A stretch of 6,978 nt of DNA, taken from assembly GCA_023539445.1 (NCBI GenBank), contig JAKCEW010000024.1, positions 1 through 6,978 of the forward strand. Direction: 5' to 3'. The notes under the pieces were generated by a model that saw only the letters and a list, made by a program, of their open reading frames with translations, made no database searches and had not been told where the DNA came from. This document shows positions 1-3,671 of this stretch, one piece after another. The translations under genes and the position numbers were made by a program. Source of the stretch: Candidatus Terraquivivens yellowstonensis (GTDB taxonomy: Archaea; Thermoproteota; Nitrososphaeria_A; Caldarchaeales; Wolframiiraptoraceae). The stretch's first letter is position 1; each line of letters begins with the position of its first letter.

Positions 1-733
1 CTTTCAATTCCTCTTCGGATTCAAGGTAATGGGGGACGCTCGAGTAGGGGACGTGGTGCGCGATGTCTTTCAATTCCTCTTCGGATTCAAGTTATTCCCT
101 CCCACTCGATCTCGAGCTCGTTTTGGGCGACTTTCAATTCCTCTTCGGATTCAAGGTAGTTCTGGTCGTGGCGCTTCCGCCTCTCATATACAACTTTCAA
201 TTCCTCTTCGGATTCAAGCCGGCACGACCCTGTTCGCGATGGGCGATTGGGAGATGAGCTTTCAATTCCTCTTCGGATTCAAGTTTATAATGCACAAGTC
301 AACAACGTCCCGCCGCAGCAGAGGCGCTTTCAATTCCTCTTCGGATTCAAGCTATGCTACTCACGAGGTGCATAATAATACGGATGCTGACTTTCAATTC
401 CTCTTCGGATTCAAGAGTCCTCGAACGTCGCCCTGTCCCCGCCCTTGTAGATGACTTTCAATTCCTCTTCGGATTCAAGAGCGCGCGGGAGGCGATTCAG
501 GCGCTCACCCAGCTCAGGGCCTTTCAATTCCTCTTCGGATTCAAGAAGATAATTGGGGAGGGGTGAGGGATGGATAGGGACTTTCAATTCCTCTTCGGAT
601 TCAAGGCTCAAGGAGTGGACGGGGCCGAAGGCCATCGGCTCGTACGCTTTCAATTCCTCTTCGGATTCAAGTAGGTGAGATCGAGGCGGGGGCGCTCGGC
701 ATAAGAAACTTTCAATTCCTCTTCGGATTCAAG
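1..733 (-). CRISPR. CRISPR array, 12 repeats and 11 spacers, transcribed on the minus strand
   Basis: Twelve identical 25-bp repeats start at 1, 67, 131, 194, 259, 327, 391, 455, 521, 581, 647 and 709. I found no mismatch in any copy. Spacers lie at 26-66, 92-130, 156-193, 219-258, 284-326, 352-390, 416-454, 480-520, 546-580, 606-646 and 672-708, with lengths of 35 to 43 bp. On the plus strand each repeat begins CTTTCAATTCC. The minus-strand repeat therefore ends in ATTGAAAG, the 8-nt 5' handle of crenarchaeal type I-A crRNAs, so transcription runs from 733 towards 1. The repeat has almost no internal dyad (about 3 bp), as is usual for this unstructured class. The first base of the window is the first base of a perfect repeat and there is no degenerate terminal copy, so the array probably continues to the left. 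The newest spacer should be 672-708. Confidence 0.98.
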
Positions 734-836: not shown

Positions 837-1469
837 TCATTCAGGACCCCTTCTGGAACGGGCCTGCTTATATACCTCCCCTGAAAGGGCGCTAGGCTTG
901 CAGTACCTGCTGAAGCCGCAGTTCATGCATCTGGTCTCTGTAACCTTTACGGGCGGCATTTTTTCATCCAATATAATCCTATGGATCTCCTCCACAATCC
1001 TCTCAACGAACCTCTTGAGTCCCCCAGAAAGAAAAACCTCTAAAATCTTCCCATCAACACGGTAGTAGACAAAGCCCCTCTTAACATCCTTCCCAAAGTT
1101 CTCTTTGACAAGCAACGCGTACGCAGCCAGTTGCAGCTTATGATCGAACTTAACCCCTCCGCGAGCCTTCTCAGACCACTTAACTTCTGCCACCACATAC
1201 TCATCCAAATCAGTAATTAACAGGTAATCTACAACACCTGAAAGCTTCAGCCTATCGCTATCGAGTTTCAATTCTCGAAAAATCTTTACCGGCTTAAGCC
1301 TAGCAATTAGCGGTGCGATGTAACCTGCCTCATGCCTCTCTGAACCCATCTCCATGGCTTCCGAGACGACTTCGTCACAATGTAAGACATGAGTGATGTA
1401 CACAATCCTAGGGCAATAGCCATAATGTTTCACATCAACAACCTTGATATATCCGAGCTCCTCGGACAT
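837..1469 (-). CDS. cas4: Cas4 nuclease, spacer-acquisition factor
   Basis: This is a 210-residue protein of the Cas4 family (PD-(D/E)XK, RecB/AddB-like nuclease with an iron-sulfur cluster). In known systems Cas4 trims prespacers and helps select PAM and orientation for Cas1-Cas2. The family landmarks are all visible. Cys19 lies in a YCPR motif and pairs with Cys181, Cys184 and Cys190 (CxxC then C) as four cluster ligands. His46 lies in an RHE motif. The active-site set is Asp81, then Glu95-x-Lys97 (EVK), then Gln113 and Tyr117 in QLAAY. The ATG overlaps the cas2 stop by one base (TAATG), so the genes are translationally coupled. A GAGGGG run at 1481-1486, 11 nt upstream, is a possible Shine-Dalgarno. 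It is the last gene of the minus-strand operon and sits next to the leader. Nothing essential is missing, so it is probably active. Confidence 0.96.
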   Translation of the reverse strand: MSEELGYIKVVDVKHYGYCPRIVYITHVLHCDEVVSEAMEMGSERHEAGYIAPLIARLKPVKIFRELKLDSDRLKLSGVVDYLLITDLDEYVVAEVKWSEKARGGVKFDHKLQLAAYALLVKENFGKDVKRGFVYYRVDGKILEVFLSGGLKRFVERIVEEIHRIILDEKMPPVKVTETRCMNCGFSRYCKPSALSGEVYKQARSRRGPE

Positions 1470-1744
1470 TAGATCAGATACCCCTCAGTTTCGTAATCTA
1501 TTTGCATTCCTATCACCCTCCTATGAGTGAAGGAGGCGGGTGTTAGCGGATAAATCTGTATGTTGGCTTTTGCCCCCTTCACCAGTATGCTTAGCCCTGC
1601 CTCCACGTTTCTCATCTGACTATACGAAAGCTCGCCCACAAAAGCGCTCTTCTGAACCCTCTTCAGTCCCTTTGACTTCAGAAAGCTGGCAACCCTGTTT
1701 CTTAAATCGTCATCGGTTATGTCATATATGACTAAGACGAGCAG
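1469..1744 (-). CDS. cas2: Cas2, spacer-integration complex subunit, apparent CTG start
   Basis: An open frame without ATG, GTG or TTG near its beginning encodes a clear Cas2 of 91 residues, the normal size. The protein begins LLVLVIYDITDDDLRNRV, the first beta strand and helix of the ferredoxin-like fold. Asp8 is the conserved Asp at the end of strand 1, and KGLKRVQKSAFVGEL follows. Cas2 dimers bridge two Cas1 dimers during spacer integration. The cas1 stop TAG (1748-1750) is in the same frame, so no upstream start exists. CTG at 1742-1744 is the best candidate: AGGTGG at 1751-1756 is a good Shine-Dalgarno 6 nt before it, and the resulting N-terminus fits the family. An ATA five codons later would delete strand 1. 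The gene starts 3 nt after cas1 and its TAA overlaps the cas4 ATG by one base. Product identity is near certain; the start mechanism is inferred. Confidence 0.92.
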   Translation of the reverse strand: MLVLVIYDITDDDLRNRVASFLKSKGLKRVQKSAFVGELSYSQMRNVEAGLSILVKGAKANIQIYPLTPASFTHRRVIGMQIDYETEGYLI

Positions 1745-1747
1745 AGC

Positions 1748-2728
1748 CTACCACCTAGACTTAAAGGGAGTGTACGGATTAACGCCTTGTAGGTGAAGCA
1801 CGAGTTTTCGTGCCTGAGAAGCGATCAACTCGATGTGGGGCGGTTTGCTCTCGTGCATATATTTTAACAGATAAGCCCAGAGATCCCTGAAGGCAGCGCC
1901 CTCATCTTCAAGTTCCGCAAATATCTTCTTATCGGTTCTAGCTAGACCTATAAGCGGCCTGTCCACGGATATGGGTCTGAATTCTTCCATCAAATCGAGG
2001 ACAAGTGCCGGCCGCCCTCCCCTCGGTCTGTGAAGGAAACCAAGATAAGGATTGAGTCCAGCTAGGAAAACGGCTCGCCAGACTTCTTTCCTAAGTAAGG
2101 CATACCCGATGTTCAGCGCCTTGTTAAAAGGATCAAGCGGCCCATCTGGTGGGTTACTCCTAGTATAACGGTGATGGAACCCCAGGTCTTCAGGGAGGAG
2201 TGTGGATACTGCTTGCCAGTAAGACTTTGCGGCATGCCCTTCCACTTGTAAAAGCCCAGCGAGATCCGAAGCACCAGCCAACTCAGACAGCCTGTTCGCC
2301 AACTCGGCGGCTTTATTCTCTATGAATCCAGAATCTCGTCCGGCACTCCGCAATCTCCTAGAATACTCAAGCAACACGAGCCTTTGATTATGTATTTTCC
2401 CCTCGAGGAACTTCTTGGCTAAGCTCAATGTGTCTGACTCGTAATGCTTGAGCTGTAAAGACCACGTCTTCATAAGAGTGCCGTATCTATAATGAAGAAG
2501 TCTGGCCACCGGGTTTGTGTGTCTGAAAAATACGACGTCTATACCAAACTTTGCGGCAAGCATCAAGGCAGCGGCCGAAATTGAGACACCTTCACAAGTT
2601 ATCACGATGCTATCTATCTCGACTGGTGCTTTTTCCCACTTCGTCTCCCCCCGAACCTTTAGGACGAACCTTCCTTGCTTCACGCCCAAATACGATCCAT
2701 ATTGGTCGATTAATGCCGTTTTAGCCAT
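1748..2728 (-). CDS. cas1: Cas1 integrase
   Basis: Cas1 is the metal-dependent integrase that inserts prespacers at the leader-repeat border together with Cas2. From the ATG at 2726-2728 the protein has 326 residues, close to the usual archaeal size. The N-terminal beta domain begins MAKTALIDQYGSYLGV. The helical catalytic domain shows Glu163 (QVEGHAA), His233 (LGFLHRP) and Asp245 with Glu248 and Glu249 (LDLMEEFRP), the expected Glu/His/Asp set. The open frame runs upstream to 2842, but those 38 extra residues do not resemble Cas1 and overlap the coding 3' end of csa1, so I reject them. The chosen ATG overlaps the end of csa1 by 8 nt (ATGGCTAA), typical of coupled genes. A GTG one codon earlier (2731) is possible. 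The stop TAG is in frame with cas2, so any readthrough would give a Cas1-Cas2 fusion. Confidence 0.97.
   Translation of the reverse strand: MAKTALIDQYGSYLGVKQGRFVLKVRGETKWEKAPVEIDSIVITCEGVSISAAALMLAAKFGIDVVFFRHTNPVARLLHYRYGTLMKTWSLQLKHYESDTLSLAKKFLEGKIHNQRLVLLEYSRRLRSAGRDSGFIENKAAELANRLSELAGASDLAGLLQVEGHAAKSYWQAVSTLLPEDLGFHHRYTRSNPPDGPLDPFNKALNIGYALLRKEVWRAVFLAGLNPYLGFLHRPRGGRPALVLDLMEEFRPISVDRPLIGLARTDKKIFAELEDEGAAFRDLWAYLLKYMHESKPPHIELIASQARKLVLHLQGVNPYTPFKSRW
1751..1756 (-). promoter_or_regulatory. Shine-Dalgarno that decides the cas2 start
   Basis: The minus strand reads AGGTGG here, inside the last codons of cas1. It is complementary to the archaeal 16S rRNA 3' end and stands 6 nt before CTG 1742-1744. 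No other initiator-like codon in the cas2 frame lies at a usable distance, so this site is the main argument for a CTG start. Confidence 0.6.
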
Positions 2729-3620
2729 CACTTCTACAAACACCGAGATACGGACAGTATGGATCGCACTCATCGGGAACTCCTGGATCGACATCAGCAG
2801 AGGAGCGCTCAGCATACAGGTCGCGTCTTTCAATAAACTCAAGCCTGAGGAAGTCGTCTATCCTCACTATCCTTTCATACACCTTAAACGAATCGTACGA
2901 TTTGTTAAAATCTAGATAAAGTATCACAGCATAGTTGATGGGTGTCCTGAACTGGCATTCAAAGCACAATGCGTAGCCTGCTAAAGCTACCTCAATCGAT
3001 CGTTTGGCTGGTCTAGTCTTGAATTCTATGAGCAGGTTAGGTGGTACCAGAGCGTCAATCCTTATTGCTCTGTTTAAACCAAGCCTCCTGCCGTCTAAGG
3101 GGTACTCGCATATCCATGGGACAACCATGTTTACCAGTCCGTCAAGCGATATGTGTTGTGAGATTTCTAAAACTCTGTCAAGAGATGATGAGTACGTCAA
3201 TGCGGCTCTATGCCAGATTGCTCTGAAGGCATTGAGATATTCGGGTGATGGCGTCCCAGATACGATGGTGTTGCTAAGCTTCATCATCTCCTCGAAAAAC
3301 TGAACACCACTTTTAGGCCGGATGTTGTATAGGATTGCCTTGGCCTGAGCCGTAGCGGCTGATATGATGTTATGAACATACGCGCCGAACCTCAACCTCT
3401 CTGAAGCCTTTTCCTTCAATCTAAGGCAGTTTCTGAGGTATGCAATCCTTCCGGTTTTACACTCGAAACTAATATCCGAAACATTTGTTAATACTTCATG
3501 GCTGGGTGTAAGCGGTGGCTCGTTCCACCTCCAACCTCTGAGCTCCTCACTAACTTCACAGGGAGCTTCATGTATCTGCCGTAAAACTCTTAATACGTCA
3601 TCATGACTGTAAAACGGCAT
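2721..3620 (-). CDS. csa1: Csa1, type I-A Cas4-family nuclease
   Basis: Csa1 is a divergent Cas4-family protein (Cas4a) specific to type I-A systems and is encoded with cas1 and cas2 as an acquisition factor. From the ATG at 3618-3620 it has 299 residues and begins MPFYSHDDVLRVLRQIHE, as Csa1 proteins do. Visible landmarks are Cys54 (SFECKTGR), Gly79 and His83 (FGAYVH), Asp189 (IRIDAL), Glu199-x-Lys201 (IEFKT), and a C-terminal Cys285, Cys289, Cys295 group (ECDPYCPYLGVC). Together these give four putative iron-sulfur ligands and a PD-(D/E)XK active site. A TTG at 3663-3665 would add 15 residues, but that stretch is basic, lies in the palindrome at 3651-3671 and has no family counterpart. A 56-bp gap separates the gene from csa3, the longest in the operon, so it may have its own promoter. 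It overlaps cas1 by 8 nt. Confidence 0.93.
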   Translation of the reverse strand: MPFYSHDDVLRVLRQIHEAPCEVSEELRGWRWNEPPLTPSHEVLTNVSDISFECKTGRIAYLRNCLRLKEKASERLRFGAYVHNIISAATAQAKAILYNIRPKSGVQFFEEMMKLSNTIVSGTPSPEYLNAFRAIWHRAALTYSSSLDRVLEISQHISLDGLVNMVVPWICEYPLDGRRLGLNRAIRIDALVPPNLLIEFKTRPAKRSIEVALAGYALCFECQFRTPINYAVILYLDFNKSYDSFKVYERIVRIDDFLRLEFIERRDLYAERSSADVDPGVPDECDPYCPYLGVCRSDG

Positions 3621-3650
3621 GCTCTGACATACTTGTCGACGATTGCTTTT

Positions 3651-3671
3651 CAATTTTTGCTGCAAAAATTG
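3651..3671. promoter_or_regulatory. Perfect 21-bp palindrome upstream of csa1, candidate operator
   Basis: The 10-bp arms CAATTTTTGC and GCAAAAATTG flank a single central T (3661) with no mismatch. The site lies in the csa3-csa1 gap, 31 to 51 bp upstream of the csa1 ATG. The position suits a regulator-binding site at a promoter for csa1-cas1-cas2-cas4, and a poor TATA-like TTGAAAAG overlaps its downstream edge. Csa3a is known to activate csa1 and the acquisition genes in Sulfolobus, so Csa3 from this locus is the natural candidate ligand. That is an inference. With a 1-nt loop it is a poor RNA hairpin. Confidence 0.55.

Follow-up and report, generated by a model that had tools for sequence, protein, structure and literature searches.

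The cas2 gene of a type I-A CRISPR locus in Candidatus Terraquivivens yellowstonensis has no standard start codon and probably begins at a CTG. Our analysis covered a single stretch of 6,978 nt (the window), related loci across the Caldarchaeales, and other genes of the same genus. We consider it very likely that this CTG is read by the methionine initiator tRNA, that an AGGTG element places the ribosome on it, that ribosomes finishing cas1 supply most of the initiation, and that CTG starts preceded by GGTG(A) recur across the genus. A preliminary description of the junction had offered initiation at CTG with cas2 closely coupled to cas1, a cas1 TAG that is partly read through, or a sequencing error. 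The first of these is favored by the aligned start positions of relatives, the Shine-Dalgarno (SD) geometry, a CTG at the same place in a second species, and CTG starts in housekeeping genes throughout the genus, while the other two fared poorly.

The window lies on contig G000:C21 of the host genome (G000), a 1.16 Mb archaeal draft in 35 contigs. Its minus strand carries cas6, csa3, csa1, cas1, cas2, and cas4, and its plus strand carries csa2 and others (Table 1). The adaptation genes have the same content and order as the known type I-A module csa1-cas1-cas2-cas4, and the sole oddity in the window is the cas2 start codon. This operon is compact: the most likely start of cas1 is the ATG at 2728-2726, which overlaps the csa1 stop as ATGGCTAA, and cas4 likewise overlaps cas2, making coupled translation plausible. 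An alternative cas1 start, a TTG at 2842, was judged less likely than this ATG. On the other side of cas4, the final CTTTCAATTCCTCTTCGGATTCAAG copy of the array adjoins an AT-rich, leader-like stretch.

Table 1 Features of the adaptation operon and CRISPR array in the window.
Feature	Position	Strand	Remarks
CRISPR array	1-733		About a dozen copies of CTTTCAATTCCTCTTCGGATTCAAG
cas4	837..1469	-	TIGR00372; ATG overlaps cas2 stop (TAATG)
cas2, from CTG	1469..1744	-	91 residues plus stop; PF09827, TIGR01573
CTG, proposed cas2 start codon	1742..1744	-	No in-frame ATG, GTG, or TTG upstream; aligned with starts of relatives
cas1 stop TAG	1748..1750	-	
AGGTGG	1751..1756	-	Final two Cas1 codons (Arg-Trp) and SD-like element for cas2
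cas1	1748..2728	-	PF01867/TIGR00287
csa1/cas4-like exonuclease of type I-A	2721..3665	-	PF06023, TIGR01896

Translated on the minus strand, positions 1780..1469 read NPYTPFKSRW, the cas1 stop, and then ALLVLVIYDITDDD. The cas1 gene ends in AAG TCT AGG TGG TAG, and the cas2 frame continues as GCT CTG CTC GTC TTA GTC ATA TAT GAC, so that, as first described, no ATG, GTG, or TTG stands between the TAG and the conserved Tyr-Asp. From stop to stop this frame spans 92 codons, the earliest standard start lying 36 codons in, well beyond strand 1. The encoded protein is intact, matching PF09827 at 58.1 bits (cut-off 23.8, E = 1e-15) and the TIGR01573 cas2 model at 57.8 bits (cut-off 24.5, E = 9.8e-16), and it retains the conserved Asp that closes strand 1 (LVIYDITDDD). 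The coordinates bear out the reported spacing, with AGGTGG (1756-1751) 6 nt ahead of the CTG (1744-1742) and its AGGTG core 7 nt ahead; the gap from cas1 stop to CTG is 3 nt. Given that the host 16S rRNA ends in GGATCACCTCCT, AGGTG and the anti-SD are complementary over 5 nt. The host also encodes a second cas2 (G000:C26:28074-28340, L002), 40% identical to the first, whose ATG directly follows the TAA of the upstream frame.

We compared the junction with the cas1-cas2 junctions of eight close Caldarchaeales relatives. The codon aligned with the CTG is TTG in five (L004/L035, L007/L038, L008/L034, L009/L036, and L037), ATG in one (L005), and CTG in two. One of these last, G035 (L006/L032), belongs to another family of the same order (SZUA-1515), reads AGGTGG TGA GAG CTG CTG CTG, and has no other possible start; the other (L003/L033, G038) has, in addition to the CTG, a GTG GTG a few codons upstream that overlaps the SD. 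Most of the eight retain the AGGTGG motif. The congeners carry TTG or ATG here, and CTG at cas2 is not conserved within the genus. The preliminary description had expected the anomaly to vanish if relatives showed a standard start at this codon; such starts do occur, but the anomaly is not removed by them, and the standard starts of relatives support the CTG as the putative start position. The absence of a standard start is itself unusual, since of 104 distinct Cas2 loci only 4 show no such codon from the preceding in-frame stop to the Y-D motif. These are the locus in the window, that of G035, and two cases with ACG, all located 3-6 nt past the cas1 stop. Both ACG loci (L050 and L060) are on Bathyarchaeota-like contigs, have ACG where their relatives L018/L049 have ATG, and begin 6 nt after the cas1 stop. 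In a Cas1 tree, where branching among deep lineages was unresolved and the window Cas1 was at most 68% identical to any other, the rows with CTG did not group together. This scatter indicates that CTG at cas2 is either old and has been replaced or was acquired repeatedly, and that it is not a shared assembly artefact. A search for further cas1 relatives on viral contigs returned no match.

Other genes of the genus also lack standard starts. Comparing 566 kb of the host with stretches of a congener (G001, ~1.03 Mb), which gave 592 host genes with homologs, we found a handful in which a long conserved stretch is not preceded by any standard start. Five had CTG at the expected start: cas2, the genes for the primase PriS, the kinase RIO1, and a sugar nucleotidyltransferase, and a ScpA-like gene, the last with TTG in G001 at the position of the host's CTG. 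PriS, RIO1, and the nucleotidyltransferase were then examined across the whole order. All three have CTG at the start position in 6/6 Terraquivivens genomes (L229-L234, L259-L264, and L289-L294), and no in-frame standard codon lies upstream in 16 of these 18 loci, the exceptions being RIO1 and the nucleotidyltransferase of G003. At the G005 nucleotidyltransferase, the CTG immediately follows an in-frame TAG. In other genera, PriS starts mostly with ATG and sometimes with GTG or TTG, and the nucleotidyltransferase starts with ATG, TTG, or GTG in 22/24; the N-termini of RIO1 are less alignable, making its start comparison less clear than those of the other two.

The conservation of these codons sets them apart from their neighbors. 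Candidate selection had drawn on G000 and G001, which leaves the other four genomes as an independent test. Among the leucine-type columns common to the six genomes (35 in PriS, 23 in RIO1, and 23 in the nucleotidyltransferase), the start column alone is CTG in 6/6, and across 1,295 ordinary leucine sites CTG is retained between two Terraquivivens genomes in 34%. Judged by this pattern, the invariant CTG behaves as a start codon would, unlike ordinary leucine codons. GGTG(A) or AGGTG, complementary to the 16S end, precedes all of the CTG start sites at a similar distance, and the CTG residue is where several nucleotidyltransferase family profiles begin. At RIO1, and at those nucleotidyltransferase loci for which an upstream frame could be identified, at least 27 nt separate the CTG from the end of the preceding gene, which implies that SD-led initiation must also work without coupling. 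A smaller control, on 166 genes of a Caldarchaeum-type genome (G024), turned up a single orphan, itself doubtful. A genome-wide SD-anchored codon count, which is noisy as most genes have no strong SD, did not single out CTG, indicating that its use as a start is rare. Taken together, CTG appears to serve Terraquivivens as a real, if rarely used, start codon, with cas2 as one case.

These comparisons bear on whether the CTG is simply a sequencing or assembly error for TTG or ATG. TTG is the aligned codon in most relatives and differs from CTG by one base, and the window comes from a draft assembly. An independent assembly from another family (L006/L032) nevertheless has CTG at the same place with no alternative, making an error unlikely, and three more genes have CTG starts in six genomes each. 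We therefore regard an error as improbable. Equally at issue is whether cas2 is decaying and unexpressed, having lost its start codon while the second cas2 on C26 does the work. This second copy has an ATG and CTG is a weak start, and the window cas2 might indeed be dispensable. Against decay, the frame is intact with a good family match, the SD is retained, and essential genes in the same genome have CTG starts; we find decay distinctly improbable.

The in-frame arrangement of cas1 and cas2 had also raised the prospect of partial TAG readthrough, yielding a Cas1-Cas2 fusion of 419 residues, alone or alongside free Cas2. The window does have both frames in register across a single stop, as was originally noted, and the same layout is found in G035 (TGA), L034 (TAG), and L038 (TGA). 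This relation varies among relatives, however: cas2 lies outside the cas1 frame in 5 of the eight (L003/L033, L004/L035, L005, L009/L036, and L037), and a fusion is therefore excluded as the conserved product. The type of stop codon between the genes varies as well, and the features that are conserved are the SD element and the start position rather than the frame relation. In the host genome (95.8% complete), no PylS match to TIGR02367 rose above cut-off, and weak matches resembled those in 12/14 control genomes. ARAGORN matches labelled Pyl or Stop appeared only with introns allowed and were judged spurious. With its frame relation unconserved and PylS not found, readthrough is very improbable. 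Initiation at the out-of-frame GTG within AGGTGG (GTG GTA GGC) with a subsequent frameshift into cas2 can be practically discounted, as that frame closes after 10 codons, no slippery site is evident, and the GTG of relatives is either in frame with cas2 or missing.

Returning to initiation at CTG, we propose a mechanism built on the junction's geometry. AGGTG inside the last cas1 codons would position the ribosome at the CTG; with the small subunit held by the SD, the initiator tRNA would accept CUG through a C-U mismatch at position one, the second and third positions pairing normally, and the first residue would be methionine. Ribosomes finishing cas1 would supply most cas2 initiations, and Cas2 would be expected to be low relative to Cas1 and dependent on cas1 translation. 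An altered initiator tRNA was considered as a cause; the anticodon stem has the usual G-C pairs, as in the outgroup G024, and so no special adaptation was found.

Non-AUG initiation is already known, and what is new here is its unusual conservation. In bacteria, CUG is a known minor start at which an initiator tRNA with a CAU anticodon can begin with a first-position mismatch (PMC11497404, PMC5622118). It is a very poor start in E. coli, at 0.86% of AUG, and accounts for 0.024% of bacterial starts (PMC11497404); across 36 genome groups, AUG-to-CUG switches numbered 2/61,358 and UUG-to-CUG switches 1/2,468 (PMC5622118). In contrast, CTG is kept here genus-wide in essential archaeal genes. Termination-reinitiation in Haloferax volcanii requires very short distances (PMC10666635), and the window pair likewise has a very short stop-start distance in an operon for subunits of one complex (Cas1-Cas2). 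It differs from the Haloferax pairs in its CTG start and in leaving a 3 nt gap where those overlap by 1 or 4 nt, and coupling here is what we infer from the layout. Our search of the open-access literature turned up no publication on CTG starts in Caldarchaeales. Within the order, Wolframiiraptor has been brought into culture (PMC9246946).

The methionyl-tRNA synthetase gene may extend the pattern to other CUN codons. At all 30 Caldarchaeales loci (L340 at G000:C8:129411-131090 and L341-L369), the codon at the expected Met is CTA (15) or CTC (15), with no other leucine codon. Many of these loci lack any ATG, GTG, or TTG ahead of the first strand, and a GTG that overlaps in a different frame is often present; three Terraquivivens genomes have an in-frame stop two codons before the expected start. 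Within the genus, no column other than the start is invariantly CTA, but a CTG found three codons further along does not vary either. The synthetase may therefore start at CUA/CUC, at the CTG three codons on, or by a +1 shift from the overlapping GTG frame. A broader use of conserved CUN starts in Caldarchaeales, with CUG serving several housekeeping genes of Terraquivivens as well as some cas2 genes, and methionyl-tRNA synthetase using CUA/CUC, is a possibility we hold tentatively, with confidence a little short of even. The AUU start of bacterial IF3 tunes its expression, and by analogy weak CUN starts could be conserved by tuning expression.

If borne out, a lineage with conserved CTG starts in its essential genes would offer a natural setting in which to test non-canonical initiation in archaea and how aIF1 discrimination is relaxed or bypassed. 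There is also a practical consequence for annotation. Gene callers limited to ATG, GTG, and TTG would drop the window cas2, as had been anticipated, and the same would extend to PriS, RIO1, and similar genes in the genus, which they would truncate or drop. A few other frames have possible non-standard starts of different kinds. On G000:C5 (L141, L157-L167), a Bud32/RIO-like kinase has ATT after GGAGG, and methionine synthase has ATA or ACT near the congener's ATG. On the minus strand of G001:C4 (frame C4|-|11108), an oxidoreductase gamma-subunit-like frame lacks a standard start, and an ATC aligns with the outgroup ATG.
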